Source: Planctomycetota bacterium
GTDB lineage: Bacteria; Planctomycetota; GCA-002687715
NCBI GenBank assembly: GCA_009691765.1
Contig: SIAO01000006.1
Coordinates: 1-64,000 of the forward strand
Reading direction: 5' to 3'
DNA: 64,000 bases
Positions 1,190 to 45,360 of this stretch are shown here, one piece after another; position 1 is the stretch's first letter; each line of letters starts with the position of its first letter. The notes below the pieces were generated by a model that saw only the letters and a list, made by a program, of their open reading frames with translations, searched no databases and was not told the origin of the DNA. The translations under genes were made by a program, and so were the position numbers.

Positions 1190-1204
1190 AACGCTATTGC
1201 GCGC

Positions 1205-1669
1205 TCAGCAGCTCTTGCACTGCGCCAAGAGCTCTGACGCCTCGCGCTTGCCCGGAGGCCCAACGGACGAGGACCACAGCACCACGCCATCCTTGCCGAT
1301 GAGCACGGTGGCACGATCTGTGATGCCGCGAGCATCGAGGTACACGCCGTAAGCGGTTGCCATCGCGCCCTTCGGATGGAAATCCGAGAGCAGGGGATAG
1401 CTCACGCCGCCTAACGACTTGGCCCACGCGCCATTGGCAAACTTGCTGTCGATGCTGACACCCAGAACCTGGGTGCCACAGGCTTCGAACTCACCTTTCA
1501 GTGCTTCGAGGCCCGGGATTTCGACGCTTCAAGTGGGGGTGAACGCGAGCGGGTAGAAAACGAGCAGAACTTTCTGCTTCCCCGCGAAGTCTGACAGGCT
1601 CACGGACGCGCCGAGTTGGCTGTCAAGCTTGAACTGCGGCGCGCTGGCGCCGGGTGCAATTATTGGCAT
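1205..1669 (-). CDS. Predicted selenoprotein peroxiredoxin (Bcp/AhpE-like), UGA read as Sec47
   Basis: Thiol peroxidase of the AhpC/TSA superfamily, reducing H2O2 or organic peroxides. The reading frame from the ATG at 1669 to the stop at 1205-1207 holds one TGA at 1531-1529. It falls exactly at the peroxidatic residue of the PxxxTxxC motif, giving PLAFTPT-U at residues 40-47. Family sequence continues in the same frame on both sides (KVLLVFYPLAF before; SVEIPGLEAL, then VLGVSID after), so this is not a frameshift. Translated through, the protein is 154 residues, the normal Bcp length. A possible resolving Cys is Cys64, and there is a C-terminal CKSC. A SECIS-like hairpin follows the UGA. The gene diverges from the S9 peptidase gene at 1754. 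A nonsense mutation is the alternative, made unlikely by the second such gene at 6286. Confidence 0.85.
1481..1513 (-). promoter_or_regulatory. Candidate bacterial SECIS element in the peroxiredoxin gene
   Basis: Read on the minus strand, GGC-C-TCGAA (1513-1505) pairs with TTCGA-A-GCC (1489-1481), with a single C-A mismatch. Inside it, CACT pairs with GGTG around a GAAA apical loop (1499-1496). The apical loop begins 29 nt after the UGA and its first base is G. That agrees with the general pattern I recall for bacterial SECIS elements: loop about 16-37 nt downstream and a G in the first two loop positions. SelB binding is inferred; pairing was done by eye. Confidence 0.6.
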
Positions 1670-1753
1670 TGGTTTCTTATTCCTTTGGGGCCGGGACCTT
1701 CCCGGCGGAGCCATGCTAACGGAAGATGCGCGCCCAACACCTGTGAGGTCTTC

Positions 1754-3976
1754 ATGCGCCATTTTCATTTCGCGCCCGCACTTTTCTTGATGCTTTCGTG
1801 CCTCGCGCTGCCTGCGCAGGAAGCACCGTTGTTCAACTTGGAAGCGTGGGTGCGCAACCCCATGGGCTTCGTGCCGCAGGGTCTGTCCTGTTTGCAATGG
1901 CAAGTTGAGGGCGACAGTTTTTCTTGGGTCCGCACTGGAGCAAACGGCCCAGAGCTTGTCGTGTCCAACGCTGAAGGCACCAGCGAAACGGTTGTGCTCA
2001 ACGGCCAAGAACTCGCGGCGGCGCTCGCCACAGTCATGCCCGGCATTGGCGCCGACGCGCTTGCGAACCTGCGTTGGGAAGCCGGCGCGCGCACACTCTT
2101 GCTCGATCACCCGGCCGGTCTCGTGCGTGTGACTCTCGCTCAAGCCGTAGGCAGCGTTGCAGGTGACGCAGCCGCAACTGCGCCCGCAAACGGGATTGCT
2201 GCCGAAGTCCTATTCCGATTGCCGCAAGGCGCGGAGCATGCGGTGTATGCCGCCAACAAATCCGCGGTGGCCTTTGTGCTGGACCACAATGTGCATGTGT
2301 TGCTGCAAGACAGCACTACGCACGCCGCGACGGAAGGTGGCAACGCTGACCTCACGCATGGCATCGAAGTGCACCGCGTGGAATTTGGGATTCACGATGG
2401 TTTGTGGTTCTCGCCCGATGGAACGCGCGTCGCGTTTTATCGCGAAGACTTCAAGCCGGTGGATGCGTATCCGTACTTCGAAATCGGATCGCTGCCTGCG
2501 AAAGCTAAAGCTGGGCGTTATCCGATGGCGGGGCGCAATAGCAGCGTGGTGTCTGTAGGCGTGCATGAAATTGCAACGGGAAAGACGCAGTGGCTGGCAC
2601 TGGACTCTGTCGCCGACGAGTGGCACACCAATGTGGCTTGGAGCAAAGACAGCAGCGAAGTGTGGATCGCGCATGTGAATCGCGCTCAGTCGCGCATGGA
2701 ATTGCGCGCGTGGAATGCCGCCAGCGGTGCGCTGCGCGGCGTGGTGTTGGTGGAAGAAGATGCCGAGTGGATCGAGCCGGAATCGCCGCCGCTGTTTGTG
2801 CCCGGTGGCGCAGGCTCATTCTTGTGGCTCTCGGTACGCAACGGTTTCCGTCATGTGCATCTCTTCGATGCTGCTGGCAAGCATCAGCGTCAAATCACCA
2901 AGGGCACTTTCGATGTGCAGGAGTTTCTCGGCTTCGATGCCGATGGCAAAGGTTTTCAGTTCAGCGCGAGCGGTGAGAATCCGTTGCATAAACACTTGTT
3001 TCATGCAACGCTGGAAGGCCAGCAGCACCAGCTCACGCTAGGTCGTGGGCATCACAGCGCGCTGCGTAGTGCCAATGGCAAATGGTTGCTCGATACGCAC
3101 ACCAATCTCGAATTGCCGAAAGCTGTCGATGTTGTCGCTCTGAACAAAGATGTTGATCCGCGCCGTCTCTACACCGCGCCAGACCCATTTGCGGGCTTCC
3201 GCCACGGCCGCGACGAGTTGTTCACTTGCACCGCAGCAGATGGCGCCACGCTGCACGGTTGGATGATGCTGCCGCCCGAAGGCATGTTGTTGAAGGGCGC
3301 GCCCGTCGTGCACTACGTCTACGGTGGCCCGCACAGCCAGCTTGTGACCGATCAATGGCTGAGCGGCGGCGGTCGCTGGAATCTGTGGCTCGCAACGATG
3401 GCTTCGCAAGGCCATGTGGTGTTTTTCGCGGATGGCCGCGGCACATTGCAACGCGGGATCGACTGGCAGCAAACGGTGCATCGCAAACTTGGCACGCAAG
3501 AACTGAGCGACCAGTTGGCGGTGCTGGATTATGTGCTGCTGCGCACCGAAGCGAGCAGTGCGCGCGTGGGCGTGGTCGGCTGGAGCTTCGGCGGCTTCAT
3601 GACGCTGACGCTGATGACCCGCGCGGGAGAGCGTTACAAAGCCGGCATTGCCGGAGCGCCGGTGACCGACTGGGGCTATTACGAAACGGGATATGGCGAG
3701 CGCTACATGGACACGCCGGCAGAAAACCCCGCTGGCTACAAGGAAGCGAATCCCTCGAGCCATGTGAAGGGTTTACGCGGCCGCTTGCTCGTCGTGCACG
3801 GCAGCGCCGATGACACGGTGGTGTGGCAGAACACTCTGTCGTTCTTGAAGGCTTGCATCGACAACAGCGTTGAAGTCGAAACCATGATCTACCCAGGCGA
3901 ACTGCACGGATTGCGCGGGCGCTCCATGCTGCACTTCCTGCGCAAGGCCAGCACTTACTTCAAGTCGTCCCTGTAG
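1754..3976 (+). CDS. Secreted S9 prolyl oligopeptidase / dipeptidyl peptidase IV-like
   Basis: Serine peptidase of family S9 that probably removes dipeptides from proline-containing peptides outside the cytoplasm. The 740-residue protein begins with a signal peptide (MRHFHF, then a hydrophobic stretch ending LPAQ). Residues of about 40-480 form the DPP IV-type beta-propeller, followed by an alpha/beta-hydrolase domain. The triad is visible as Ser611 in GWSFGGFM, Asp686 in GSADDTV and His718 in GELHG. The frame is open further upstream to 1616, but the ATG at 1754 places the signal peptide at the N-terminus and leaves 84 nt for divergent promoters with the peroxiredoxin gene. Downstream it converges on the ATP-grasp gene. 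Confidence 0.9.
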   Translation: MRHFHFAPALFLMLSCLALPAQEAPLFNLEAWVRNPMGFVPQGLSCLQWQVEGDSFSWVRTGANGPELVVSNAEGTSETVVLNGQELAAALATVMPGIGADALANLRWEAGARTLLLDHPAGLVRVTLAQAVGSVAGDAAATAPANGIAAEVLFRLPQGAEHAVYAANKSAVAFVLDHNVHVLLQDSTTHAATEGGNADLTHGIEVHRVEFGIHDGLWFSPDGTRVAFYREDFKPVDAYPYFEIGSLPAKAKAGRYPMAGRNSSVVSVGVHEIATGKTQWLALDSVADEWHTNVAWSKDSSEVWIAHVNRAQSRMELRAWNAASGALRGVVLVEEDAEWIEPESPPLFVPGGAGSFLWLSVRNGFRHVHLFDAAGKHQRQITKGTFDVQEFLGFDADGKGFQFSASGENPLHKHLFHATLEGQQHQLTLGRGHHSALRSANGKWLLDTHTNLELPKAVDVVALNKDVDPRRLYTAPDPFAGFRHGRDELFTCTAADGATLHGWMMLPPEGMLLKGAPVVHYVYGGPHSQLVTDQWLSGGGRWNLWLATMASQGHVVFFADGRGTLQRGIDWQQTVHRKLGTQELSDQLAVLDYVLLRTEASSARVGVVGWSFGGFMTLTLMTRAGERYKAGIAGAPVTDWGYYETGYGERYMDTPAENPAGYKEANPSSHVKGLRGRLLVVHGSADDTVVWQNTLSFLKACIDNSVEVETMIYPGELHGLRGRSMLHFLRKASTYFKSSL

Positions 3977-5036: not shown

Positions 5037-6076
5037 GAGGACATAGAGAAACGGCCTGCAAACAAGTAGTTCTTGGACAGCGACACGCAACAAGCGGCGA
5101 GATCGAGCAGTGCTGTTTCTTCGGGCGCGGTGCGGACCAAATCCAATTCGCGGCAAGTAGCGATCATGGCGGAGAGCATGGCGTCGAGATTGTACTTCTT
5201 CAGGCCGGACCAGCGGGCGACCACTTCGCGCAGGCGTTTGCGGTTGCGCTTGATGAACTCTGCGGCTTTCTCGGCTTCAGGATGGCCGGTGCGTCCTGCA
5301 AAAATCCGGCGCAAATCACCATCGACATATTCAGGTGACGTTTCTTCTGCGAGCACCACCAAACGCTCGTCATAAAACTCTTGCAACGTGCGTTGGTCTG
5401 CGGCGATGGCGTGCGGTTGCACTTTCGATTGCACCGGCGGTTCGCGTCCGCGCAGTTTGGTCAAACGCGCATCCATCCATTCCAGTTTGCGCAATGCGCC
5501 CTTCCAAGTCTTGTAGCGTTCGCGCCACGTGCTCGGCGGTGAGAGCCACACGGCGAAGGTCTCGGCGAAGTCTTCATCGGGATGACTTTGCGCGTACCAG
5601 TTGTCCAAGTGGCGGACGAAAGCGTGGCTGTGCGGTTTGGGCGTGTAGTTGTCGGGGTAGGGCAGTTTGCTGTTGCCAAAGAGTTCGCGCCGTCCGCGTT
5701 GGCGCGACATGCGGTACGCATAATCCGCAGCGTGTCCGGCTTCATGGCGCAAGATGCGCATGGCTTCGTCAGCGGTGCCGCCTTCGACATCCAAAACTTG
5801 TCGGCGTTCAAGTCGCAGTAGCCGCGGATGCGCCAAATAAAACGGTATGCCGATGCAGGTTTCGCCTTGCTCGACAAACCACTCCGTGCTCAGAAAGCAC
5901 AGCGGTTTGAAGCTCAAGCCGCGTTCCGCCAGCTCACGCCAAAGCTGTTCCACCAACGGGCCGATTTCGCAGTCCGCGAGGCGTAGAGGTAGATCGCACA
6001 GGCGTGTGCGGAGCAAGTCCGCATCCGTTTTCCCGAGCGTTTCAGCGGTGTTTTGTCCCATCGGGCTGTTGCCCAT
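5033..6076 (-). CDS. Putative zinc-dependent metallopeptidase coupled to ATP-grasp ligase
   Basis: A 347-residue protein without a signal peptide. A zincin motif, HEAGH, occupies residues 111-115 and is followed by DEDFAETF (167-174), whose Glu172 is a candidate third zinc ligand as in gluzincins. The rest is uncharacterised; the C-terminal half (about 215-347) is helical and charged. The gene stops in an ATGA overlap with the ATP-grasp gene, so the two products are probably made together. Such pairs are, as I recall, annotated as 'putative zinc-binding metallopeptidase' plus 'ATP-grasp' in several planctomycete and verrucomicrobial genomes. Substrate and pathway are unknown. Confidence 0.72.
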   Translation of the reverse strand: MGNSPMGQNTAETLGKTDADLLRTRLCDLPLRLADCEIGPLVEQLWRELAERGLSFKPLCFLSTEWFVEQGETCIGIPFYLAHPRLLRLERRQVLDVEGGTADEAMRILRHEAGHAADYAYRMSRQRGRRELFGNSKLPYPDNYTPKPHSHAFVRHLDNWYAQSHPDEDFAETFAVWLSPPSTWRERYKTWKGALRKLEWMDARLTKLRGREPPVQSKVQPHAIAADQRTLQEFYDERLVVLAEETSPEYVDGDLRRIFAGRTGHPEAEKAAEFIKRNRKRLREVVARWSGLKKYNLDAMLSAMIATCRELDLVRTAPEETALLDLAACCVSLSKNYLFAGRFSMSS

Positions 6077-6285
6077 GGGAGCTTTCTACCAACCCACAGC
6101 CTCTTGGCGCAGCACCGCGGGTCAAGAGGAGCTGCCACAGGTGTTTTGTGGCTGGTTTTCTCATATGGGCTGCAGCTTTACCCCCTTGGCGCCGCCTTGA
6201 TCCGCCCTGTGTTTCTTCAGGCCGGGATGGAGCGTTGGATGCGAGGGGTGGTATAAATGGGCGCCCTTTGGGCAGGAGATACCCC

Positions 6286-6603
6286 ATGCGTTTTGCCATT
6301 CTCGCGCTCGCCCTGAGCCTCGTCGTTATACCGGCGATGTTCGCGGCGTCCGGCTCTGCGGTGCCGACCGCAGATGATCCGGTTGTGTTCTTGGTCGGTG
6401 TTTCTGGGATGACTTGAGCAGGGAGCTGCACAGCCAAGGTCCGTGCGACCTTGGGAGCGCTCGCTGGTGTCGAGAAGGTGGAAGTGGACTTCAAAGCGAA
6501 GGTCGCTTCCGTCACCATGAAGACCGGTTCCCTCACCAAAGAAGACGCCGAGAAGGCACTGAAGTCCAAGGGCTTCGGGCTCTCCAGCTTCGCGAAGAAG
6601 TAA
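6286..6603 (+). CDS. Predicted exported selenoprotein, HMA (MerP-like) metal-binding domain, Sec44
   Basis: A 105-residue protein with a signal peptide (residues 1-20) and one heavy-metal-associated ferredoxin-like domain. An in-frame TGA at 6415-6417 lies in the metal-binding loop, giving GMT-U-AGS-C-TAKV. In HMA proteins this first position is Cys (GMTCxxC or GMTCxxxC). The domain continues in frame after it (LAGVEKVEVDFKAKVASV) to the TAA at 6601. A perfect 8-bp hairpin sits 16 nt after the TGA. GGAG in 'caggagat' (6274-6280) is a good ribosome-binding site for the ATG at 6286, and a strong Rho-independent terminator follows at 6625. Sec-containing MerP-like proteins are known from earlier selenoproteome surveys. 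The role may be metal or metalloid binding, or thiol redox; the metal is unknown. Confidence 0.85.
6434..6454 (+). promoter_or_regulatory. Candidate bacterial SECIS hairpin in the HMA selenoprotein gene
   Basis: CCAAGGTC (6434-6441) pairs perfectly with GACCTTGG (6447-6454) around the loop CGTGC. The stem begins 16 nt after the UGA and the apical loop 24 nt after it. G is the second base of the loop. This matches the general layout of bacterial SECIS elements that recruit SelB. An eight-base perfect inverted repeat at this exact place inside coding sequence is unlikely by chance. Confidence 0.7.
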
Positions 6604-6624
6604 CGCTTCGCGTTTGAGTTTGAA

Positions 6625-6663
6625 CGAGGCTCCGCTCCACGAGCGGGGCCTTGGTTCGTTTTT
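6625..6663 (+). terminator. Rho-independent terminator after the HMA selenoprotein gene
   Basis: A 13-bp stem, including CCGCTC pairing with GAGCGG and extended by GAGGC/GCCTT with two or three G-T wobbles, closes on a CAC loop (6638-6640). It is followed by a T-rich tail ending in TTTTT (6659-6663). It lies 21 nt after the stop codon and separates this gene from tatD. Confidence 0.7.
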
Positions 6664-6674
6664 AAGACACACAG

Positions 6675-7448
6675 ATGGAAAAACTTTTCGACACACATTG
6701 CCATCTCACTCTCGGCGAGCTGGCGCCCGACGGCACTGCTGCATGGGAGCGCGCGCGTGCAGATGGCGTTACGGAAGCGCTCGTAGTGGGCATTGATGCT
6801 GCCACTTCCACCGCCGTGCTCGCATTCGTTCATGCTCACGAAAACCTCTGGGCAGCGGTGGGCATCCATCCGAATGACACTGGTGCCGCAACCGCAGCGG
6901 ACTTCGAGACGATTCGCAGTCTCGCTGCAGATTCACGTGTGCGCGCCATTGGCGAAACGGGCCTCGATTTCTACCGCGACACATCTGCTGCGGCGGTGCA
7001 AGAAACCAGTTTGCGCTGGCACTCAGAACTCGCCCTCGAATTGGGCAAGCCACTGGTGCTGCACATTCGTGAGGCCTACGCGCCTACAGCGAAAGTCATA
7101 GAACCCTATGTCTCGCGTGGATTGCGCGCGGTGTTGCATTGCTTCGGCGGCAATCCGCAAGACTTGCATCCCTTTCTTGAGTGGGGGTTTTTCATCTCCT
7201 TTAGCGGCATCATCACGTACCCGAAAGGCGAGAATGTGCGTGCAGCGGCGCGCGAGGTTCCGATCGAGCGCTGTCTCGTGGAAACCGACGCGCCATGGCT
7301 CGCGCCGGTGCCCTTCCGCGGCAAACGCAATGAACCGGCGCATGTGGTGCACACCGCGCGCGAACTGGCCCGAGTGAAAGGCCTTGCAGAGGCGGATGTT
7401 TTTCGCCAAACGACAGCTAACGCGCACGCATTCTTGGGCATCGTCTGA
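6675..7448 (+). CDS. tatD: TatD family metal-dependent hydrolase / DNase
   Basis: A 257-residue amidohydrolase-fold protein of the TatD family, a cytoplasmic Mg-dependent 3'-5' exonuclease or DNase linked to DNA repair and fragment turnover. Metal ligands are visible in family order: DTHCHL (residues 6-11), GETGLDFYRD, HIREA, HCFGG and TDAPWL near the C-terminus. The start follows a terminator and a short leader. It precedes the xylose genes by 39 nt, with a possible separate promoter (TAGTCT at 7465-7470), so it is probably not functionally linked to xylose use. Confidence 0.93.
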   Translation: MEKLFDTHCHLTLGELAPDGTAAWERARADGVTEALVVGIDAATSTAVLAFVHAHENLWAAVGIHPNDTGAATAADFETIRSLAADSRVRAIGETGLDFYRDTSAAAVQETSLRWHSELALELGKPLVLHIREAYAPTAKVIEPYVSRGLRAVLHCFGGNPQDLHPFLEWGFFISFSGIITYPKGENVRAAAREVPIERCLVETDAPWLAPVPFRGKRNEPAHVVHTARELARVKGLAEADVFRQTTANAHAFLGIV

Positions 7449-32935: not shown

Positions 32936-34480
32936 ATGGATCCACGCCAGCGCCTTGAAGCCATGCGCGAAGCCGCCCGACTTGGCGGCGGTCAGGAACG
33001 CATCGACGCGCAACACGCGCGTGGCAAACTCACGGCGCGTGAGCGCATCGATCTCTTGTTGGATCCAGGCTCCTTCGTGGAGTTCGACGCTTTCGTCACG
33101 CATCGCTGTCATGACTTCGGCATGGACAAGAAGCTAATTCCTGGTGACGGAGTCGTCACTGGGCACGGTTGCGTCGATGGCCGCGATGTTTTCGTTTTTT
33201 CGCAGGACTTCACTGTGTTCGGCGGGTCGCTCTCGGAAGCTCATGCCGCCAAGATCTGCAAAGTCCTAGACATGGCGATGAAAGTCGGTCGGCCCGTGAT
33301 CGGGCTGAACGATTCTGGTGGCGCGCGCATCCAAGAAGGCGTGGTGAGCCTGGGTGGCTATGCCGACATCTTCTTGCGCAACACTTTGGCTTCAGGCGTC
33401 ATTCCGCAGATTTCGTGCATCCTTGGGCCCTGCGCAGGCGGTGCGGTCTATAGCCCTGCGATCACCGACTTCATCATCATGTCGGAACAGAGTGCCTACA
33501 TGTTCATCACGGGACCAAACGTGGTGAAAACCGTGACGCACGAAACGGTGAGCTCTCAAGAACTGGGCGGCACCGAAGTGCATGCAGCAAAATCCGGAGT
33601 TGCGCATTTTGCCGCCGCTACCGACGCCGAAGCCATCGCAGTGGCGCGTGAGTTGCTCTCGTACTTGCCGCTCAACAACATGGAGGATCCTCCGACGCGT
33701 CCGACGCGCGACGATCCTGAACGCCGCGATCCGCAATTGGCCGAGATTGTGCCGGCGCAAGCCAACAAGCCCTACGACATGCGCGCGGTGATCACGCGCG
33801 TCGTTGATGACGGGCGCTTCTTCGAAGTGCATGCACGTTTCGCCGCCAACATCCTCACGGGTTTGGCGCATATGGATGGGCGCGTTGTGGGCATCGTTGG
33901 CAATCAGCCCGCAGTGTTGGCCGGAGTACTGGACATCGACGCATCGGTGAAGGCCGCGCGCTTCGTGCGCTTTTGCGATTGCTTCAACATTCCAATTATC
34001 ACTTTCGAAGATGTTCCTGGCTTCATGCCCGGAGTTGCGCAGGAACACGGCGGCATCATTCGCCACGGCGCGAAGCTCTTGTATGCGTATTGCGAAGCGA
34101 CTGTTCCCAAACTCACGGTGATCACGCGCAAAGCTTATGGCGGAGCCTACGATGTGCTTTCTTCGAAGCACATTCGCGGGGATGTGAACTTGGCTTGGCC
34201 CGGCGCAGAAATTGCCGTCATGGGTCCGCGCGGCGCTGTGGAGATCATCTTCAAGCGCGAGATCGAAGAGGCTGGCGATAAGCGCGCCGAAGTGGAGGAG
34301 CGCTTGGTGCGTGAATACACCGAGACTTTCGCCAATCCCTTCAGTGCTGCTGCACGTGGTTATGTCGACGACATCATCGAACCCGAAGAAACTCGTCCGC
34401 GTTTGATTCGCGCTTTGCGGCTCTTGGCCTCGAAGCGCGACAGCAATCCGCCCAAGAAACACGGCAACATCCCTTTGTGA
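32936..34480 (+). CDS. pccB: Propionyl-CoA carboxylase beta (carboxyltransferase) subunit
   Basis: Transfers the carboxyl group from biotin to propionyl-CoA. A 514-residue crotonase-fold carboxyltransferase: N-terminal [18 protein letters not shown], oxyanion-hole segments [11 protein letters not shown] and [12 protein letters not shown], and a C-terminal half with [12 protein letters not shown] and [15 protein letters not shown]. The Asp in GGAYD agrees with propionyl rather than acetyl preference, as I recall for actinobacterial enzymes. A TACTAT (32921-32926) just before the ATG might be a -10 element. It is part of the mutase-epimerase-carboxylase operon. Confidence 0.94.
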
Positions 34481-34493
34481 GTACGCAAGAGCG

Positions 34494-36001
34494 ATGACGC
34501 CAGCGCTGAACCCCATCCGCAAAGTTCTCGTAGCCAACCGCGGCGAAATCGCGGTGCGCGTGATCCGTGCCGTGCATGAGATGGGATTGAAAGCTGTCGC
34601 GGTCTATTCTGATGCTGATCGTGGCAGCTTGCATGTGCGCTACGCCGATGAAGCGTTCCATCTGCCGGGCGAGGAATCATCAAAGACATATTTGAATCAG
34701 GCGCTCATCTTGGTGGCTGCCAAGAGCACCGGCTGTGACGCGTTGCATCCTGGTTACGGTTTCCTTTCAGAAAACGCTGCATTCGCACGCGCCGTCGCGT
34801 CTGCAGGGCTCACCTTCATTGGCCCAAGCCCTGAAGTGATCGATGCTATGGGCGACAAGATTCGCGCTCGCGAGACCATGCGTGCTGCTGGCGTGCCGTT
34901 GGTGCCGGGGCAGAGCGGCATCACACGCGAAAACCTCAGTGCTGCCGCGAAGTCCGTGGGCTACCCGTTGATGCTGAAGGCCTCTGCAGGCGGCGGCGGC
35001 AAGGGCATCCGCATTGTGCGTCAACCTCACGAGCTGCTCTCCGCTTTCGAGCGCGCGCAAGGCGAAGCGCGCACCGCCTTCGGCGACCCGACGGTGTACA
35101 TCGAGCGCTATGTAGAAAACCCACATCACATCGAGATTCAGATCTTTGGCGATCAACATGGCAATGTGGTGCATATGTTCGATCGTGAATGCAGTGTGCA
35201 ACGTCGGCACCAAAAAGTCGTTGAGGAAAGTCCTTCGCCCTTTGTGACTGCTGCATTGCGTGAGGCGATGGGGCGTTGCGCTGTGAATGCGGCCAAGAGC
35301 ATTGGCTATAGCAGCGCAGGCACGTTTGAGTTCCTCGTAGATTCTGAGCGCAACTTCTATTTCCTCGAAGTGAACACACGCTTGCAGGTTGAACACACGG
35401 TGACAGAAATGTGCACCGGCATCGACCTTGTGCGCGAGCAGATTCGCGTTGCGTCCGGATTAGAGCTTTCATTCACGCAAGCAGATTTGCGGCAACAAGG
35501 CCATGCTATCGAAGTGCGTATTTGCGCTGAGGATGCCGAGAACAACTTCTTGCCCTGTGTGGGCCGCGTGGATGCTCTCGCATTGCCCGGCGGGCCCGGC
35601 GTGCGTCTTGACTCTGCGCTCTTCACCGGCATGGTGATTTCACTTTGGTATGACTCGCTCTTGGCCAAACTGGTGGTGCATGGCCGCGATCGTGCCGAAG
35701 CGTTGACGCGCATGCGGCAGGCTTTGTCAGAGATAAAAATTGCCGATTTGAATACCAATGTGGCGTTCCTTGGACGCGTGGTGCGTAATGAGGAGTTCGT
35801 CTCGGGCGTGTATGACACCGGGCTTATTGCGCGCATGCCGAAACCACAGGCACCCGACGATCTCGTGCTTGCGGCTTCCATCATCGCGGTGGTGATTTGC
35901 GCCGAGACCAAGCGTACGGCGCGGCCTGACGCCAATGGCAACACGGCAAGTGTCGATCCTTGGAAACTCGCGGGGCGTCGCGGCAACATGAGGGGACGCT
36001 G

Positions 36002-36002
<1 letters not shown>
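34494..36002 (+). CDS. pccA: Biotin carboxylase subunit of propionyl-CoA carboxylase
   Basis: ATP-dependent carboxylation of biotin. A 502-residue biotin carboxylase: KVLVANRGEIAVRVIRA, GYGFLSENAAFA, the Gly-rich ATP loop KASAGGGGKGIRIV, QRRHQKVVEESPSP, FLEVNTRLQVEHTVTE and the later RICAEDAENNF. It lacks the fused biotinyl domain, which is the next gene. The C-terminal 60 residues extend beyond a minimal AccC. The start lies 13 nt after pccB; the stop shares one base with the carrier gene ATG. Confidence 0.95.
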
Positions 36003-36508
<506 letters not shown>

Positions 36509-36554: not shown

Positions 36555-38276
36555 ATGAAGTTGTTCACAGCACTGGTGGTGTTCGCACTTCTCGTAGGCA
36601 GCGGTCATGCACAAGTGTTTGGCTATGGCAACTTCGCGGGAGCCACAGGACTTTCGCTCAATGGAGCTGCTTTCATCGACCAGACGTCAGGCGTCTTGAT
36701 GGTGACCCCCAATGCGATCGCGCAGTCCGGGCGCGCATGGGCGAGCGCACCGGTCTATGTGGCCTTCGGTTTCGATACGGTGTTTCAATTCAAGGTGACG
36801 CGTACTGGCGTGGGTGCCGACGGCATGGCGTTCGTCATACAGAATTCTGCTGCGGGCAACGCTGCTGCGTCCGTGGGGGGCACTGGCAGTGACAACGGAT
36901 ACGGCGGCAGCCCGGGCATCAGCAACGCGCTCGCCATCGAACTCGACATGTACTACATGAGTTCGTCGCCGTATTTCGACACGAGTGGCAATGAGATTTC
37001 CATTCACACCATGGGCAACGCTGCAATCAACGCCTACGAATCCTCTTCGATCGGCCGCGTGACGCCTGTGATTCCGATGAATGACCAATTGCTTCACACG
37101 CTGCGTGTGAACTATGTGCCCGGAACTCTGTCGGTGTACCTCGATGACATGTTGAATCCGGTGCTGGTGACTCCGTACGACTTCGCTCCGGGCGGTACCT
37201 ATGTGAACACGGGCACTCCGGCACCGGGACTGAGCGTGCCAAACGGTGTTGCATGGGTTGGCTTCACAGGTGGGACCGGAGGACTTTCGCAATCACACGA
37301 GATTCACAATTGGACATGGACTTCAACGAATGCGCCGATCACTTGCTACAGCGGCAACGTAGGTGCAGCGACGCTTCCATATCCGGCGCAGGTGCTGAAG
37401 GTGAACGGATCCTCTGGCGGTTTGCAGCACATTGTGAACACCACGGTTTCTTCCAACATCACGGTTTCCTTCGATCCATTCCCTGGTGGCGCCATTCAAC
37501 CTTTCGTGATTTGGGGCATCGTGGCACCTGCGGGCTCGCTGGTGCCTCTGTTTACGCCGTATGGTGATTTGTGTTTCATTCCGCAGTTCCTCGATCCTTT
37601 CAATCCGTTCAACTTCACTCTGACCGATTGCATCGGCTTGGGAATGCCTGGGTTCATTCCCTCGGCGCCCGGATTGTGGTCTTTTACTATGCCGGGCGGC
37701 ATCGCTGTACCGCTCACGCTGACTCTGCAAGGGGCGCTCATTGATATTGGAACACCCGCCATCACCAATTCGGTGACGATCAATGTGGTGCCGGCGCCAG
37801 CGCCCGTCATCACAGTCCTTTCGCCGCTTTACGGCAATGCAGGCGCAACCGTCACCATGACGGGGACTGGTTTCTTGCCCGGAGCAACCGTCCGATTTGG
37901 AGGTGTGCTCGCGACGATCAGTGCGCAAAGCGCAACGCAAATCGTCACCGCTGTGCCTACAGGGGTTCCGTGTCCCGGAACGCTCCTGCTCACCAACCCT
38001 GATGGGCAGACCGCTACTCGAAACTTCAATACTCCGCTCATCAGCGGATTGTTGCCGAGCTCGGGCCTCGCTTCTGGCGGAGCCAATCTCTACATTCTGG
38101 GCAGTGGGCTCGCACCGGGCTGCACCGTCACAATCGGCGGGGCACCAGCGACAATCACCACCAACATTCCGACGCAGATCATTTGCATCACGCCTCCAGG
38201 AACTGTCGGGCCAGCTGCGCTCGTGGTGACGACGCCGCAAGGTTGCAGCGCGAGCAGTACGTACACCTACAACTGA
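36555..38276 (+). CDS. Secreted lectin-like protein with TIG (IPT) domains
   Basis: A 573-residue exported protein with a signal peptide (MKLFTALVVFALLVGSGHA). Residues of about 20-255 look like a bacterial L-type (legume) lectin sandwich: FQFKVTRTGVGADGMAFVIQN, ALAIELDMYY, GVAWVGFTGGTGG and a C-terminal HEIHNWTW. A linker with four Cys follows, then two TIG/IPT domains (VITVLSPLYGNAGATVTMTGTGF and ISGLLPSSGLASGGANLYILGSG; both cut short here). It probably binds glycans at the cell surface. A -10-like TAGGAT lies about 30 nt before the ATG. Confidence 0.68.
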   Translation: MKLFTALVVFALLVGSGHAQVFGYGNFAGATGLSLNGAAFIDQTSGVLMVTPNAIAQSGRAWASAPVYVAFGFDTVFQFKVTRTGVGADGMAFVIQNSAAGNAAASVGGTGSDNGYGGSPGISNALAIELDMYYMSSSPYFDTSGNEISIHTMGNAAINAYESSSIGRVTPVIPMNDQLLHTLRVNYVPGTLSVYLDDMLNPVLVTPYDFAPGGTYVNTGTPAPGLSVPNGVAWVGFTGGTGGLSQSHEIHNWTWTSTNAPITCYSGNVGAATLPYPAQVLKVNGSSGGLQHIVNTTVSSNITVSFDPFPGGAIQPFVIWGIVAPAGSLVPLFTPYGDLCFIPQFLDPFNPFNFTLTDCIGLGMPGFIPSAPGLWSFTMPGGIAVPLTLTLQGALIDIGTPAITNSVTINVVPAPAPVITVLSPLYGNAGATVTMTGTGFLPGATVRFGGVLATISAQSATQIVTAVPTGVPCPGTLLLTNPDGQTATRNFNTPLISGLLPSSGLASGGANLYILGSGLAPGCTVTIGGAPATITTNIPTQIICITPPGTVGPAALVVTTPQGCSASSTYTYN

Positions 38277-39336: not shown

Positions 39337-40776
39337 TCAGCCGCGGCCTTCGTCGTCGCGCCAACGCAACACACGGCGCGTGATGAAGATGTAAGCGGGT
39401 TTCACAGTGCTCATCCAAAGGCGTGTGCTCCATGCCTTGCGCGCGAGCAGCCAACGACCACGTGGCGACACCGATCCGGGGCGGTAGCGCTCTTGTTGTT
39501 TCAAAAGGTGACGCAGATCTTCGCGCGCCTGCAAGCGGAACCAAGCGCCAAGGCGGTGATGCACGGAAGCTAATTGCAAGTCGATCAGCGCCAGTCGGCC
39601 ATCTGGAAGCACGATCCAGTTGGGCGGCTTGTGCGTGTCGTTGTGGGTGATGCCGCGTTGACGCATCGAGCGCAGCAAGTTGCGCGCTTCGCGGAAGGCC
39701 AACACGCTTGGCGGAGAGGCTGCTTGCAGAGGGTTGCCTTCGAGACGCGAACGCGCCAAGCGCCCATTGTCTCGTGCGCGGATTTGTGGGACGAGGCCCG
39801 TGGGTTTACCGGCGAGCGCTACCAACGCCGTTTCTTCGCGCAGCAACAACGCTGCTGCCAGAGGCCGTGCCCACCAGCGTGCGTTGCGCACGTCGCGCAG
39901 CACCACGGGGCCGTCCGCGCCATCGGCGAATGCGATCGAACCAAAGATGTCGGCCTTCAGAATGCGGTTTGGTGTGATGGCGCGACAATCGGGCAATTGC
40001 GGCAAGACTCTGCGACGCAGCGCGTGTTGCAGCAGTGCAGCGCACGAAAGCGCAGCAAGCACGTGTTTCCATCCATGGCCACTGAGAACAAGAGTGTGCC
40101 CGAGGCTTCCGTCAGCCTGTTCGAGAAGTTTGGCCAGTGCATAGAGCACGACGGCGCCAATCCAAGCGAGGAGCCCTGTGGTGCGTCGCGGCGTGAGTGC
40201 CATGAGCACGGGCATCAAGATCAGCGGCAAGAATTGCGCCAGCGCGTAGGGGACGAGGTTGCCGACACCAAGCGCTTCGGTGTGTTTCCACCAGAACACT
40301 GTGGCGGGATCGATCAGCAGCAGCGCTACGAGCGCATAGGTGCCACACCTCGGACCGAGGCGTTCGGCGATGGCCGCAGCGAGCAGCCCCGCGAAAGCCA
40401 CGGTCATGGGGAGACGATCCCAGAACAAGCGCTCCGTGCAGGGGGATGCGTGATACCAAGCTGATCCCAAACCAGTCGCAACGATGCCAAGGGTGGCGAC
40501 GATCCAAGGCAAGGCTTCGGCGCGTGTCAATGAGCTTCGCGAAGGTGAGAGCAGTGCAAACAGAGCAGCGATCCCGACCCACAGAAACGGGAGATTGGTG
40601 AGCACCAATTCAGCATGCGACAGGCCACAGCATGACGCAGTTGCATGAAAGCTGTGGTAGCCGGGGTCTTGAGGCACAGCGGGAAGCAGCACAACAAGGA
40701 GCGCACACAGCAGTGCGGTGCCTGCCGCAAGGCACCACAAGGTGGTCTTGTGGAATGAGGTTGAAGCGTCGCTCAC
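39337..40776 (-). CDS. Membrane protein fusing ceramidase-like hydrolase and kinase-like domains
   Basis: A 479-residue protein with two parts. Residues 1-255 contain about seven membrane helices and the ceramidase (CREST) residues: Ser105 and His109 in GLGSAWYHA, Asp120 in FWDRLPM, and His234 and His238 in GHGWKH. These match the zinc site of alkaline ceramidases. Residues 260-479 look like a small protein-kinase-fold domain of the WaaP/RIO/Kdo-kinase kind, with a catalytic loop THNDTHKPPN (Asp380, Asn386) and LALIDL (Asp399) in place of DFG. A membrane lipid or glycolipid hydrolase tied to a phosphotransferase is the best reading. The substrate is unknown, and I know of no such characterised fusion. 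Confidence 0.65.
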   Translation of the reverse strand: MSDASTSFHKTTLWCLAAGTALLCALLVVLLPAVPQDPGYHSFHATASCCGLSHAELVLTNLPFLWVGIAALFALLSPSRSSLTRAEALPWIVATLGIVATGLGSAWYHASPCTERLFWDRLPMTVAFAGLLAAAIAERLGPRCGTYALVALLLIDPATVFWWKHTEALGVGNLVPYALAQFLPLILMPVLMALTPRRTTGLLAWIGAVVLYALAKLLEQADGSLGHTLVLSGHGWKHVLAALSCAALLQHALRRRVLPQLPDCRAITPNRILKADIFGSIAFADGADGPVVLRDVRNARWWARPLAAALLLREETALVALAGKPTGLVPQIRARDNGRLARSRLEGNPLQAASPPSVLAFREARNLLRSMRQRGITHNDTHKPPNWIVLPDGRLALIDLQLASVHHRLGAWFRLQAREDLRHLLKQQERYRPGSVSPRGRWLLARKAWSTRLWMSTVKPAYIFITRRVLRWRDDEGRG

Positions 40777-40851
40777 GTGCTCAGCTTGTGGTTGAACTTC
40801 GGCGCGTCAAGGGGCGCTGATATAGTCATGCCGCTCGAAAGGGGGCTACTC

Positions 40852-41475
40852 ATGTCCGCTCGAATTGTGGTTGCATTGGTGTTGCTGCTGTGTGTAGGTG
40901 TTGCTCAGGACAAGGCTTTCATGCCTTTTTATGGCAACGCCAAATGCCCTATCGAGGGCAAGGATGTGAATCGCAAGCTCTTTGCTGAACACGAAGCTCA
41001 GCGCATTCATGTGTGCAGCAAAGACTGCCGCAAGAAAGTGGATGCGGACCTTGCTGCCAATCTCGCCAAGGCCTACCCGGCCGACAAAGTCGTGGATGTG
41101 AAGAACGCGACGTGCCCTTGCATGCCTAAGGCTGCGAAGGCCGAGTTCAGCACGGTCTGGCAAGGCCACAAGGTGCAGTTCTGCTGCAAGAAGTGTCTCG
41201 GCAGGTTTCCAAAGCAGCCTGCGCGCTTTCTCACCATGGCGCTTAATAAAGACCTTGTGGCAGTGGGCAACACAAAGTGCCCCGTGATGCCTGAAGAGGA
41301 TGTGGAAGCGGACATGTTCATTCTCTACAAAGGCAAACTCATCGACCTGTGTTGCGATTCCTGCGTCGACGATTTTGATGCAGCCAAGCACATGAAGAAC
41401 TTGCCTGCGCAGAAGGCGCCCGGGCAGCCCGGTGGCACAGGTGGTGCGCCCGGCACTGGTACGGGTGGCGGCTGA
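40852..41475 (+). CDS. Exported protein with three Cys-rich YHS/TRASH-like units
   Basis: A 207-residue exported protein (signal peptide MSARIVVALVLLLCVGVAQ). It holds three copies of a small metal-binding-like unit at about 32-60, 88-115 and 143-171. Each has Cys-Pro followed 22-24 residues later by Cys-(Cys)-x-x-Cys: KCPIEGKDV...HVCSKDC, TCPCMPKAA...FCCKKC and KCPVMPEED...LCCDSC. The Gly/Pro/Thr-rich tail is disordered. GGGGG upstream of the ATG at 40852 and TATAGT (40821-40826) give the start and a possible -10. The next gene carries a fourth unit, which suggests a shared periplasmic metal (copper?) role. Confidence 0.65.
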   Translation: MSARIVVALVLLLCVGVAQDKAFMPFYGNAKCPIEGKDVNRKLFAEHEAQRIHVCSKDCRKKVDADLAANLAKAYPADKVVDVKNATCPCMPKAAKAEFSTVWQGHKVQFCCKKCLGRFPKQPARFLTMALNKDLVAVGNTKCPVMPEEDVEADMFILYKGKLIDLCCDSCVDDFDAAKHMKNLPAQKAPGQPGGTGGAPGTGTGGG

Positions 41476-41493
41476 GTTCTGAGGAACCACGCG

Positions 41494-42297
41494 ATGCGTC
41501 GAACTGTGCGCTGCTGTCTCTTGCTTCTTGCGCTAGCCTGCGCTGCCTTCGCGCAGCCGGTTAGTGCATCCAAGTCACAAGAGTCCAACCCGGTTCCGCA
41601 GGCCGCACCAACCGCGCCGCAGCAGGTGATGAACAAAACTTGCCCCGTGATGGAGGGGGAGCCGGTCGGTGATGATCCTGTCGTCATCGAGTACGAGGGC
41701 AAGAAGATCAACTTGTGTTGCAAAAAGTGCAAGCAGATCTTCCTTCAGGAGCCGCAGCGTTACATCAAGGGTTTGCCGCAATTCGCGGTGCCGGCAGACG
41801 TGGCGCGAGCGACAGCTGCTGTTTTGCCACTTGCAGTGATCCCAACGGCGCAAACAGAATCCACGCCGTTCTTGGACTGGCTCGGACGCTTCCATGTTGT
41901 CGTGGTGCACTTTCCTATCGCGCTGATTCTCTTTGCTGGCGCATGGGAGTGCATGTTGCTGCTTCGCGGCAGACCGCCCTGCGCGCCAGGCGTGCGCGCC
42001 GTGCTCGCGGGCGGCGTGGCAGCCGCGGCCGTGGCTATCGGGCTTGGCCTGCTCTACGAAGAAACCATGGACTTTGTTGGCGAGCGTCACGCCGTGCTCG
42101 AACTCCATGAACTCTATGCATGGAGCGGAGCAGGGTGCGCTGCATTGGCGCTGTTGCTTTCATGTTGGGCTCCCCGCGTCACGGCTGTCAGTTGGGCCTA
42201 CCGCGTCATTCTCACTGCGTCGGCTGTGTGTATTGGGCTCGCAGGTCACGCTGGCGGGCGTTTGACTCAAGGCCTTGGTTTTTTCTCGCGCGGTTGA
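41494..42297 (+). CDS. YHS/TRASH-like unit fused to DUF2231 membrane domain
   Basis: A 267-residue protein with a signal peptide or N-terminal helix (residues 5-20). A Cys-rich unit follows at 50-79 (CPVMEGEPV...LCCKKC), then a DUF2231 domain of four membrane helices starting LGRFHVVVVHFPIALI and ending GHAGGRLTQG. DUF2231 proteins are probable heme- or metal-linked membrane proteins with conserved His. It is 18 nt after the three-unit protein and 51 nt before the TonB-dependent receptor, so the three probably act as one operon. Confidence 0.75.
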   Translation: MRRTVRCCLLLLALACAAFAQPVSASKSQESNPVPQAAPTAPQQVMNKTCPVMEGEPVGDDPVVIEYEGKKINLCCKKCKQIFLQEPQRYIKGLPQFAVPADVARATAAVLPLAVIPTAQTESTPFLDWLGRFHVVVVHFPIALILFAGAWECMLLLRGRPPCAPGVRAVLAGGVAAAAVAIGLGLLYEETMDFVGERHAVLELHELYAWSGAGCAALALLLSCWAPRVTAVSWAYRVILTASAVCIGLAGHAGGRLTQGLGFFSRG

Positions 42298-42348
42298 TTG
42301 AACCGAGCGGCCAATTCTGCGCTAACTGCCGCAAGGACACTCTAGCTC

Positions 42349-44490
42349 ATGTGCTCAAGCACTCTGGCCGCACTTCTGTTGGCACTGCTCTCGCTACCGT
42401 TGTTTGCCCAAGATCCGGTTCCCCAGCCTCCAGAAGTGCAACGCGGTGCGGTGGAGCAGGAAGTCAACGCAGTCATTTCACGCTTGGACACCATTGTGGT
42501 GACGCCGCTGCTGGAATCCGGCACCATCTTCGAAGCGCCCTTTGAAGCGGTCGTTATCACGTCCGAGCGCCTCGGCAGCGTGCGTACTCTTGCGGATGCC
42601 TTGCGAGGCCTTCCTGGTGTGGCCGGGCAACGCACGGGCTATGGCCAGTCGAGTCCGTACCTGCGCGGGTTCACCGGATACCACACGCTGTGGATGCTGG
42701 ATGGCATCCGGCTGAACAACTCGGTCTATCGCTCTGGGCCGAACGAATACTCCGCCACCATCGACGCGCACTCACTCGAGCGATTAGAAGTGGTGATGGG
42801 CCCAGCGTCCGTGCTGTACGGATCAGATGCAGTCGGTGGGGCGTTGAATGCGCTCAGCCGTCGTCGCGATCCGCGCGAAAACAGGGCGACCGAAGTGCGC
42901 ACGCTCAGTCGTTACTCCACGGCTGAGGCATCGATCACCGGGCGCGTGGAAGTCTCAGGTGCTGCAGGCGGTGTCGGCTATGTGCTGGGCACAACACTGG
43001 CGCACTACGGCGACCTCGATCAAGGTGGAGCCGGGCGTCAACCCATGACCGGCTATCGCTCGGGGTTCATGGATGCGCGTTTCGATGTGGCGGTGTCAGA
43101 CAACTGGACCGCGGCATTGCTGGTTCAAAGCGCCGATCTCGACAGCGTAGACCGTACGCACCGCACCAACGTCGCAGTGCCGTATCACGGGACCACTGTG
43201 GGCACCGACCGCAAGTTGGAAGCGGACTACGAGCGAAACCTCAGCGCGTTGTTGCTCGAAGGCGTGAATCTCGATGGCGCAGTGGATCGCCTTGAAGTGC
43301 GCGTGTCTTGGCAAGAGCTTGAGGAAACCTCGAACCGCATTCGTTCCAACAACAACCGCGAGGAGCAGGGCTTCGATGTGGGCACCTTCGGCATCGCCAT
43401 CGAGGCTTCCAAGTCTACGGAGATCGGCGTTCTCTCTGCAGGTCTTGATTGGTACCACGATCGCGTATCGAGTTTCCGGACGAACTACAACCCAGCAGGC
43501 GCAGTGACTTCCGTTGGCATTCAAGGACCAGTGGGCGATGACGCCAGCTACGACCTTGCGGGGTTGTTTCTGCAAGATGACTTGGAGCTTGGAAGCGGGT
43601 TCTCGGCACTCGTAGGGGTTCGAGCAACTTGGGTGAGCGCTGATATCGGTCGCGCCGTCGATCCGGCGAATACGACTCAAGCGATCAGTCTCTCCGATGA
43701 TTTCTCGACGGTGGTTGGATCGTTGCGCATTTCGAAGAGACTCGGCGAAGACTGGAACGCATACGCGGGGCTCTCGCAGGGGTTTCGCGCGCCCAATCTC
43801 TCAGACCTGTCGCGCTTCGACATTGCGCGCAGTGGGGAAGTGGAACTGCCTTCCCCCGGCTTGAACCCCGAGAAGTTCTTGACCTACGAAATTGGTGCGA
43901 AGACTGAGAGTGAGAATTGGACAGGATCGTTGGCGCTGTGGCACACACGCGTGAACGACATGATCATCCGTCAGCCAACGACGCAGATGATTGGCACCAA
44001 TGTGGTAGTGACCAAGAGCAACGCGGGCGAGGGGCATTTGCAAGGCATCGATCTTGGTGTGCAGCGCTTGCTCGGATCCGGCTGGACCGGCTTCGGAACA
44101 CTTTCTGCGACTGACGGCCGCATTGCGGCTTTCGCCACCAGCGGACCAACTCTTACCGTTGGTCCTCTTTCACGTCTTGCTCCTTTCCAAGGCCTGATCG
44201 GAGTTCGTTTCGAAAGCGACGACGGCTGCTTCAGCATGCAGCCTTCGCTGCTGCTGGCCGCACATCAAGAGCGCCTTTCCGCCGACGATATTCGCGACAC
44301 TCAGCGCATTCCGCCGGGCGGCAGCCCTGGCTACAGCGTGCTCACCTTGGACTTCAACTATCGCTTTAGCGAGCGCTGCAACGCATGGTTGTCGCTCGCG
44401 AACCTCGGCGACATCGAGTACCGCGTGCATGGCTCTGGTCAGCAGGAAGCCGGCTTCAACATGATCCTCGGCGTCGAGGCGCGTTTCTGA
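42349..44490 (+). CDS. TonB-dependent outer-membrane receptor
   Basis: A 713-residue TonB-dependent receptor. The signal peptide ends near LPLFAQ. The plug domain (about 45-165) includes LADALRGLPGVAGQRTGYGQSS, quoted in part as LRGLPGVAGQRTG, and YLRGFTGYHTLWMLDGIRLNN (in part TLWMLDGIRLNN). A 22-strand-type barrel ends in Phe, with AQ-rich strands. It takes up a large or scarce ligand at the cost of the proton gradient. Placement after Cys-rich metal proteins and before TonB suggests a metal complex. Its stop is back to back with the convergent tonB stop in a TGATCA. Confidence 0.92.
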   Translation: MCSSTLAALLLALLSLPLFAQDPVPQPPEVQRGAVEQEVNAVISRLDTIVVTPLLESGTIFEAPFEAVVITSERLGSVRTLADALRGLPGVAGQRTGYGQSSPYLRGFTGYHTLWMLDGIRLNNSVYRSGPNEYSATIDAHSLERLEVVMGPASVLYGSDAVGGALNALSRRRDPRENRATEVRTLSRYSTAEASITGRVEVSGAAGGVGYVLGTTLAHYGDLDQGGAGRQPMTGYRSGFMDARFDVAVSDNWTAALLVQSADLDSVDRTHRTNVAVPYHGTTVGTDRKLEADYERNLSALLLEGVNLDGAVDRLEVRVSWQELEETSNRIRSNNNREEQGFDVGTFGIAIEASKSTEIGVLSAGLDWYHDRVSSFRTNYNPAGAVTSVGIQGPVGDDASYDLAGLFLQDDLELGSGFSALVGVRATWVSADIGRAVDPANTTQAISLSDDFSTVVGSLRISKRLGEDWNAYAGLSQGFRAPNLSDLSRFDIARSGEVELPSPGLNPEKFLTYEIGAKTESENWTGSLALWHTRVNDMIIRQPTTQMIGTNVVVTKSNAGEGHLQGIDLGVQRLLGSGWTGFGTLSATDGRIAAFATSGPTLTVGPLSRLAPFQGLIGVRFESDDGCFSMQPSLLLAAHQERLSADDIRDTQRIPPGGSPGYSVLTLDFNYRFSERCNAWLSLANLGDIEYRVHGSGQQEAGFNMILGVEARF

Positions 44491-45360
44491 TCAGAGGCGC
44501 AGTGGCACGAGGAGCTTTGAGGCCACTGCGGCCCCGTCTTGCATTGCAGGACTGAAACTGAAACCCAGCACTGTGCGCAGCGCCGCTGCGTCCAACGCTG
44601 CGTTGCCCGATGAGATGCTGATGGACGCAGTCAGTGCGCGCCCTGTGGCGTCGAGGTCCACTAACACTTCGACGCTGCCGCGCCAGCCGTTGCGGCCGGC
44701 TTCACGAGCGAGGCGTTGCGTGGCGCGCTCGTGATTCAAGAGGCGCGCAGCAATACGACCTGCTCCGTCGCGCGAGCCTTTATTGATGAGAGCGCGAGGA
44801 TCTTCACCGCCGCCCGTGGCTGGGACTGTAGTGACACCAGTAGCGACATGTTGCGTTGACGTGGTGCTCGTAGGACCGTTCGCGCTACTCTCGACGCTGC
44901 TGCTGCCGCGCGCAAACGCTTGGACTTCAGACTGTGTCGGGGCTGCGAGCGATTCGGTTTCGCCACTCGCAACGGGTTTCGCCGCTTCAGCAGCGATCGG
45001 CGCCTTTGCAACAACGGAGTTCATCAACAGCTGCTCGGGATCGACCGGGGCATTCGCCTCAACGAGCGGCGCAGGCTCGACCGCGTTCAGCACCGGTGTG
45101 GGGAGGACTTCCGTGATGGGCTCGGCTTGATCCGTACGCTCGGCAAGTTCAGTGGCCCGCTCACCGCGAGGTGTGGTGCTGAGGGTGACTTCCATCACCC
45201 ACTCCACGTCTGCACGTTCTGCGGGCAGGTTCAGTGGCGTGTGGGCGGCCCAGAGCAACAACCCCGCGTGCAGGGCTGCAGCGCAGATCATCACATCGGC
45301 GCGCCAGCGCATCGGTGGCACGATTCTCGTAAGCCGACGGTTGCTGCCTTCTGAATACAT
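44491..45360 (-). CDS. Energy transducer TonB family protein
   Basis: A 289-residue inner-membrane TonB-like protein: cytoplasmic N-terminus, one membrane helix (about 22-40, VMICAAALHAGLLLWAA), a long Ala/Glu/Pro/Thr-rich periplasmic stretch, and a C-terminal TonB domain (about 205-289) with GWRGSVEVLVDLDATGRA and LDAAALRTVLGFSFSPA. It faces the receptor gene tail to tail. ExbB and ExbD are not in the window. Confidence 0.87.
   Translation of the reverse strand: MYSEGSNRRLTRIVPPMRWRADVMICAAALHAGLLLWAAHTPLNLPAERADVEWVMEVTLSTTPRGERATELAERTDQAEPITEVLPTPVLNAVEPAPLVEANAPVDPEQLLMNSVVAKAPIAAEAAKPVASGETESLAAPTQSEVQAFARGSSSVESSANGPTSTTSTQHVATGVTTVPATGGGEDPRALINKGSRDGAGRIAARLLNHERATQRLAREAGRNGWRGSVEVLVDLDATGRALTASISISSGNAALDAAALRTVLGFSFSPAMQDGAAVASKLLVPLRL

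Follow-up and report, generated by a model that had tools for sequence, protein, structure and literature searches.

A Fused Gene for a Putative Membrane Hydrolase and a Kinase

The window, by which we mean the whole analyzed stretch of 64,000 nucleotides from a planctomycete genome, carries at 39337..40776 on the minus strand a complete fused gene in which a CREST ceramidase-like domain is followed by a RIO-like kinase domain, as recognized from the open reading frame, Pfam, NCBIfam and AlphaFold2. The frame runs from 40776 to 39337, opens with a GTG start and encodes 479 aa. A sequence-only reading of this interval, which named no strand, had pointed to eight residues (S105, H109, D120, H234, H238, D380, N386, and D399), and all of them have been found at these positions. 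The full-length AlphaFold2 model, calculated with an alignment of homologous loci as input (pLDDT 91.5, pTM 0.82), has an ACER-type domain at the N-terminus and a kinase fold at the C-terminus, the two folds that the same reading had proposed to look for by structure prediction. It is confirmed that the interval encodes a genuine two-domain protein, beyond a match of motifs, and the fold and domain identity of both halves are nearly certain.

Between the two closest species, dN/dS amounts to ∼0.14–0.24 across the N-terminus, the CREST part, the linker and the kinase, with dN of ∼0.19–0.29 and dS of 0.86–1.66 in every segment including the linker, a substitution pattern which indicates that the fusion gene is under purifying selection. 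The short linker that connects TM7 to the kinase in the model (residues 258–267, 39976..40005, minus strand) shows a dN/dS of 0.19/1.38. As two other genomes carry this fusion as an uninterrupted frame (72–73% and 50–51% identity), a frameshift or an assembly artefact can be ruled out, and so can a chimera, given an intact frame in three genomes at 50–73% identity and the low dN/dS.

The fusion gene has several neighbors of note. Divergent from it, at 40777–45360, lie genes for a YHS protein, a YHS-DUF2231 membrane protein, a TonB-dependent receptor and a TonB-like protein, a cluster that looks like a metal-uptake set and is kept beside the kinase across the family. Immediately downstream and convergent is a gene for a probable lipoprotein resembling 3-keto-disaccharide hydrolases (PF06439, 38721–39332). 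A secreted-looking protein with legume-lectin-like and IPT/TIG domains (36555–38276) is encoded between the fusion and an acyl-CoA carboxylase set (carboxyltransferase, biotin carboxylase and biotin carrier, 32936–36508), the latter being retained in part by the family on the opposite flank of the kinase.

The Ceramidase-Like Half

The alkaline ceramidase-like (CREST) membrane domain extends over residues 7–257 (40006..40758, minus strand) and contains eight helices of membrane-span length, namely seven core TM helices with the ACER/AdipoR fold and an additional N-terminal helix, TM0 (residues 7–30, 40687..40758, minus strand), which, judged from the model helix and the charge bias, sets the CREST core N-in/C-in. 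Relatives were collected from planctomycete genomes, and 20 CREST and 21 kinase sequences were aligned; a first mixed alignment had misplaced TM7 and was left out of the results. Among the 20 CREST homologues, all five site residues are invariant: S105 and H109 of the SxxxH motif at the end of core TM2 (helix 85–110; motif 40450..40464), D120 at the start of core TM3 (helix 114–140; 40417..40419), and H234 and H238 of the HxxxH motif at the start of core TM7 (helix 233–257; motif 40063..40077), all encoded on the minus strand. The earlier assignment of a ceramidase/CREST domain has been substantiated by this conservation, by a Pfam Ceramidase match above the cut-off (PF05875, 33.9 bits vs. 32.5, residues 59–249), and by the superposition of model residues 37–261 on human ACER3 (6g7o; Z 18.5, rmsd 3.3, 210 aligned residues). 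A sequence-profile search with the CREST half has in addition returned a weak match to SIDT2/SIDT1. On the grounds of sequence and model, residues 37–261 are taken to be a CREST domain of the alkaline-ceramidase type.

With the alkaline ceramidases (human ACER3 and yeast YPC1/YDC1) the protein shares the fold, the S-xxx-H motif, an Asp 11 residues after the His, and the H-xxx-H motif. In contrast to them, it adds an N-terminal TM helix and a C-terminal kinase, its identity is 13% only, and its ceramidase activity is a predicted one. The bacterial CREST hypothetical groups 1 and 2, which are the bacterial CREST members nearest to alkaline ceramidases, display the same motifs, yet they are mainly proteobacterial and have been reported with no kinase fusion (PMC3146951); ceramidase tests of bacterial members have been called for in the same survey. 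We regard it as rather probable that the CREST part is an active amidase on a sphingolipid.

The Kinase Half

The kinase domain comprises residues 268–479 (39340..39975, minus strand) and, judged from NCBIfam, conservation and the model, has a RIO-like fold of the PRK12274/PRK09188 kind. These two NCBIfam models, both named "serine/threonine protein kinase", cover residues 267–479 at nearly full length (E 7e-56 and 4.5e-50), although the scores fall well short of what an equivalog would need (172 of 372 bits for PRK12274 and 192 of 490 for PRK09188) and the kinase of the window is, in addition, fused to a membrane enzyme; a literature search has returned no paper naming either family. A profile search with the kinase half has matched kinases of known structure at E 1e-9. 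In the full-length model it superposes on RIO2 of A. fulgidus (1tqi; Z 16.6, rmsd 3.2, 173 residues), and RIO2 is again on top when the kinase is modeled alone (pLDDT 93.3; Z 17.8, 167 aligned). Invariant among the 21 kinases are the alpha-C Glu, the catalytic loop H378-x-D380 ... K383 ... N386 (39619..39645, minus strand), the metal-binding D399 of an IDLQ motif that usually reads DFQ (39580..39582, minus strand), and R294 on beta3 (39895..39897, minus strand), located by alignment and model. The kinase-like C-terminal part proposed earlier is thus well founded in the NCBIfam matches, the RIO2 fold and the invariant Asp/Asn/Asp, and residues 268–479 are, as far as sequence and model can tell, a RIO-type kinase with a protein-kinase-like (RIO/Bud32/KdkA) fold. 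Because the Lys of the beta3 VAIK is replaced by the invariant Arg R294, we speak of a kinase-like fold and withhold the label of a canonical Ser/Thr kinase.

The relatives of the kinase weakly match Kdo kinase, Bud32, LanKC and RIO models. A proposed link to WaaP/Kdo kinases comes down to a distant family resemblance: the Kdo kinase model PRK01723 (KdkA) is matched, weakly, by 19 of the 21 relatives, whereas a Pfam search with the kinase of the window has returned no family at E ≤ 0.1, and no Kdo/WaaP match (PF06293). WaaP is not among the fold matches listed, a list which is filled by other kinases and is hence uninformative on WaaP. A further comparison is offered by the ceramide kinase CpgB of Caulobacter, likewise a bacterial kinase in a ceramide-making diderm; it is, however, of the LCB5/DAGK type with a GGDG motif and differs in fold from the protein-kinase-like domain described here (PMC10331486). 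The kinase half has no match to DAGK_cat, and its RIO-type fold rules out a relationship to CpgB. A separate LCB5/DAGK-type (DAGK_cat) lipid kinase gene is present elsewhere in the host genome. Whether the target of the fused kinase is a lipid or glycolipid rather than a protein appears evenly balanced to us.

Membrane Topology

In the model, TM2 bears its zinc motif at the end, TM3 and TM7 bear theirs at the start, and the kinase starts ∼10 residues past the end of TM7. Zinc site and kinase are therefore at opposite ends of TM7, and the two active sites would lie on opposite membrane faces, whatever the orientation. The number of Lys and Arg residues is greater on the C-terminal side in 20 of 20 CREST homologues (10 vs. 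2 in the protein of the window). This charge bias, and likewise the cytoplasmic location of ATP, leads to the prediction that the kinase should be in the cytoplasm and the zinc site should be directed toward the periplasm. For ACER3, a cytoplasmic N-terminus and a luminal C-terminus have been described (PMC6303388), and its zinc is on the cytoplasmic side, so that the charge bias predicts the opposite orientation, and hence an inverted insertion, for the protein studied here; the difference on the N-terminal side would result from the extra helix TM0. Should this inversion be real, the protein would also illustrate how one added helix at the N-terminus can turn a ceramidase toward the opposite face of the membrane.

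The predicted geometry also bears on a simple scheme suggested by the sequence-only reading, in which one protein cuts a lipid and then phosphorylates the product. With the zinc site and the kinase at opposite TM7 ends in the model, and with the charge bias of the 20 homologues, this scheme is disfavored: a product would first have to cross the bilayer, a direct hand-over is unlikely, and cutting and phosphorylation in one pocket are excluded as far as the predicted geometry is correct.

Distribution and Origin of the Fusion

A search for the same domain order in other genomes, proposed by the earlier reading as well, has located the fusion in all three sampled genomes of a single planctomycete genus, that of the window. 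In the other genera of the family the kinase is found at the same place, flanked by a YHS gene and, across from it, by GNAT or biotin-carrier genes. Two sister genera (G003 and G004) have the kinase alone at that locus. In a third (G005), a second CREST fusion, consisting of a CREST domain and an alpha/beta hydrolase (1459–3213 of locus L046, minus strand), overlaps with its stop the start of a separate kinase gene (764–1462, minus strand) by 4 bp, the joint stop and start reading ATGA. The kinase tree places G003 beside the fused kinases (support 95/92) and G004 with G005 (99/96), which implies that the kinase was inherited vertically and that a CREST gene was joined to it. On whether the G005 pair and the fusion have one origin or two, the CREST tree gives a support of 28/23. 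The best explanation is that the fusion was made in place, by joining a CREST amidase to an older, vertically inherited kinase gene of the RIO/Kdo type.

Outside the family of the window, CREST and kinase share none of the 294 planctomycete genomes sampled; the fusion is lineage-restricted, which limits its reach. Plasmid and viral collections contain CREST genes as free-standing genes only, in proteobacterial plasmids, and no kinase relatives were found in these collections. The long N-terminus of one planctomycete CREST frame (G037) was considered as a possible domain and dismissed, since it looks like read-through of a non-coding frame. In two other families (f32 and f56; e.g., loci L049, L053, L058, and L061), the standalone kinase is accompanied by a divergent lpxB and, in several genomes, by a block with an ECF sigma factor and YbjQ. 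The earlier statement that no characterized protein with this pairing is known holds as far as the literature could be checked: no pairing of a CREST hydrolase with a kinase was found there, and none in the CREST survey (PMC3146951), and the pairing appears to be unreported.

Co-Occurrence With Ceramide Synthesis

The host genome contains, on another contig (C20, 27000–41000, locus L087), a Caulobacter-type spt-bcerS-cerR ceramide locus, with SPT-like, bCerS/YghO-like and divergent CerR-like epimerase genes at 4717–8248 of L087. The gene at 5915–7129 scores higher as serine palmitoyltransferase (NF047600, 508 bits, under the cut-off of that model) than as bioF (372) or glycine C-acetyltransferase (356). 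Its neighbors are related to E. coli YghO (34% identity) and to the epimerase encoded near YghO (28%); in E. coli, genes for AOS, an acyl carrier protein and an acyl-AMP ligase belong to the same cluster. In Roseomonas, a homologue of the YghO-like gene is accompanied by genes for DAG kinase, LptF/G and an NTP-transferase. As the YghO-like gene is left unnamed by Pfam and NCBIfam alike, its identification as bCerS is based on context, which matches the aasR-cerR-acpR-spt / cerS arrangement of the Caulobacter ceramide cluster (PMC11324152, PMC12275187).

Among the 294 planctomycete genomes sampled, 106 have a bCerS-like gene. It is present in 19 of 22 CREST-positive but 87 of 272 CREST-negative genomes (Fisher p 6.5e-7, with shared ancestry ignored), and in 16 of 18 CREST genomes when the family of the window is left out (p 1.7e-6, again with shared ancestry ignored). 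Ten of the 12 families with a CREST gene include a genome having both, and two of the three CREST genomes lacking bcerS are incomplete (76% and 68%). For the kinase, used as an internal control, there is no such link (bcerS in 9 of 28 kinase genomes); given that it mostly occurs without ceramide genes and without CREST, its ancestral substrate was probably not a sphingolipid. The link between CREST and ceramide synthase is the more general and more testable result than the fusion. With ceramide-synthesis genes in the host and the co-occurrence of CREST genes with them, the membrane-lipid role put forward by the sequence-only reading is favored.

Proposed Function and Alternatives

Most likely, ceramide or a related N-acyl lipid is turned over by the protein in the periplasmic leaflet, and this turnover is linked to a phosphorylation in the cytoplasm. 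The fusion would be a bifunctional inner-membrane protein whose zinc site opens to the periplasmic leaflet, the side where bacterial ceramide synthesis is completed; in Caulobacter, CerR is periplasmic (PMC11087976). Zinc would be held by H109, H234 and H238, with D120 as the base and S105 as an oxyanion helper as in ACER3 (PMC9436119), and the site would hydrolyze the amide bond of ceramide, of dihydroceramide or of a closely similar N-acyl lipid. The sphingoid base set free in this way may go back to the cytoplasmic face, there to be re-acylated or phosphorylated. The kinase, in turn, would phosphorylate a hydroxyl of a membrane lipid or glycolipid at the cytoplasmic face, and the joining of both domains would couple the turnover of envelope lipids across the bilayer. 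In this full form, which pairs a ceramidase directed toward the periplasm with a lipid or glycolipid kinase in the cytoplasm so as to couple envelope-lipid turnover, the proposal is a tentative one: against it stand the opposite-facing active sites, the kinase family, which is mostly found without ceramide genes and without CREST, the separate LCB5/DAGK-type kinase of the genome, and the lack of a PF00282 match in the fused genus.

The opposite-sided geometry would equally suit a receptor-kinase, in which the CREST part senses ceramide or the membrane state in the periplasmic leaflet, as proposed for the PAQR/AdipoR type, and switches a cytoplasmic kinase that acts on a protein. The CREST superfamily includes receptor-like PAQRs, which have been suggested to possess hydrolase activity (PMC3146951), and RIO2, lanthipeptide-synthetase and Ser/Thr kinase structures top the fold matches of the kinase. 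Most standalone members of the kinase family, however, are free of a sensor domain, NCBIfam sets the family near protein kinases but also near KdkA and RfaY, which are glycolipid kinases, and neither an evident partner protein nor an obvious response gene at the locus of the window has been seen, so that we hold such a lipid-gated signaling kinase to be unlikely, if worth keeping in mind.

The weak PRK01723 matches of 19 of the 21 kinase family members may instead indicate that an LPS-type sugar is phosphorylated on the cytoplasmic face, while the CREST part removes an acyl chain of lipid A or another glycolipid after flipping. In 15 of 27 genomes, a divergent lpxB is located at a distance of 0.2–4.6 kb from the kinase gene, and LpxB, LpxK and KdtA occur in nearly all kinase genomes. 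The adjacency is, however, limited to two families, inside a longer conserved block with the sigma factor and the YbjQ gene; as the neighbors are conserved too, it may reflect inherited gene order and counts for less as evidence of an LPS role. The family of the window lacks this adjacency, the kinase of the window is moreover missed by the Pfam Kdo family, and the CREST gene tracks ceramide synthesis rather than LPS, which is nearly universal here. We therefore consider a glycolipid kinase with an attached lipid deacylase to be distinctly unlikely. A role of the kinase as a stand-in for LpxK has been ruled out by the presence of LpxK in every kinase genome tested.

A stricter form of the ceramidase proposal, in which periplasmic ceramide is deacylated and the base, once it has moved through the inner membrane, is captured in phosphorylated form by the fused kinase, is quite improbable; if true, a single protein would salvage sphingolipids by means of a kinase fold that is not known to act on sphingoid bases. 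Sphingosine-phosphate lyase has been considered as a downstream partner and rejected, since a search of the fused genus (G000–G002) returned no protein of the sphingosine-phosphate-lyase type (PF00282); full degradation via the phosphate is thus unlikely there. That the CREST part is idle or unrelated and merely holds a membrane-acting kinase at the inner membrane, the two parts having no pathway in common, would agree with the lack of a general functional link implied by CREST and kinase genes never co-occurring outside the family, but it is the least probable of all in view of the five retained catalytic residues, the low dN/dS over the CREST part and the occurrence of the pairing both as a fusion and as overlapping genes.

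Implications for Bacterial Sphingolipid Recycling

Turning back to the turnover of periplasmic ceramide as the preferred reading, the recycling of sphingolipids in bacteria has been stated to be unclear (PMC11324152). Because the bacteria that bear the fusion also carry the genes for making ceramide, the fusion protein is a good candidate for bacterial ceramide breakdown or recycling, and a ceramidase-type gene that tracks the bacterial ceramide synthase across the phylum offers a concrete gene with which such recycling can be tested.
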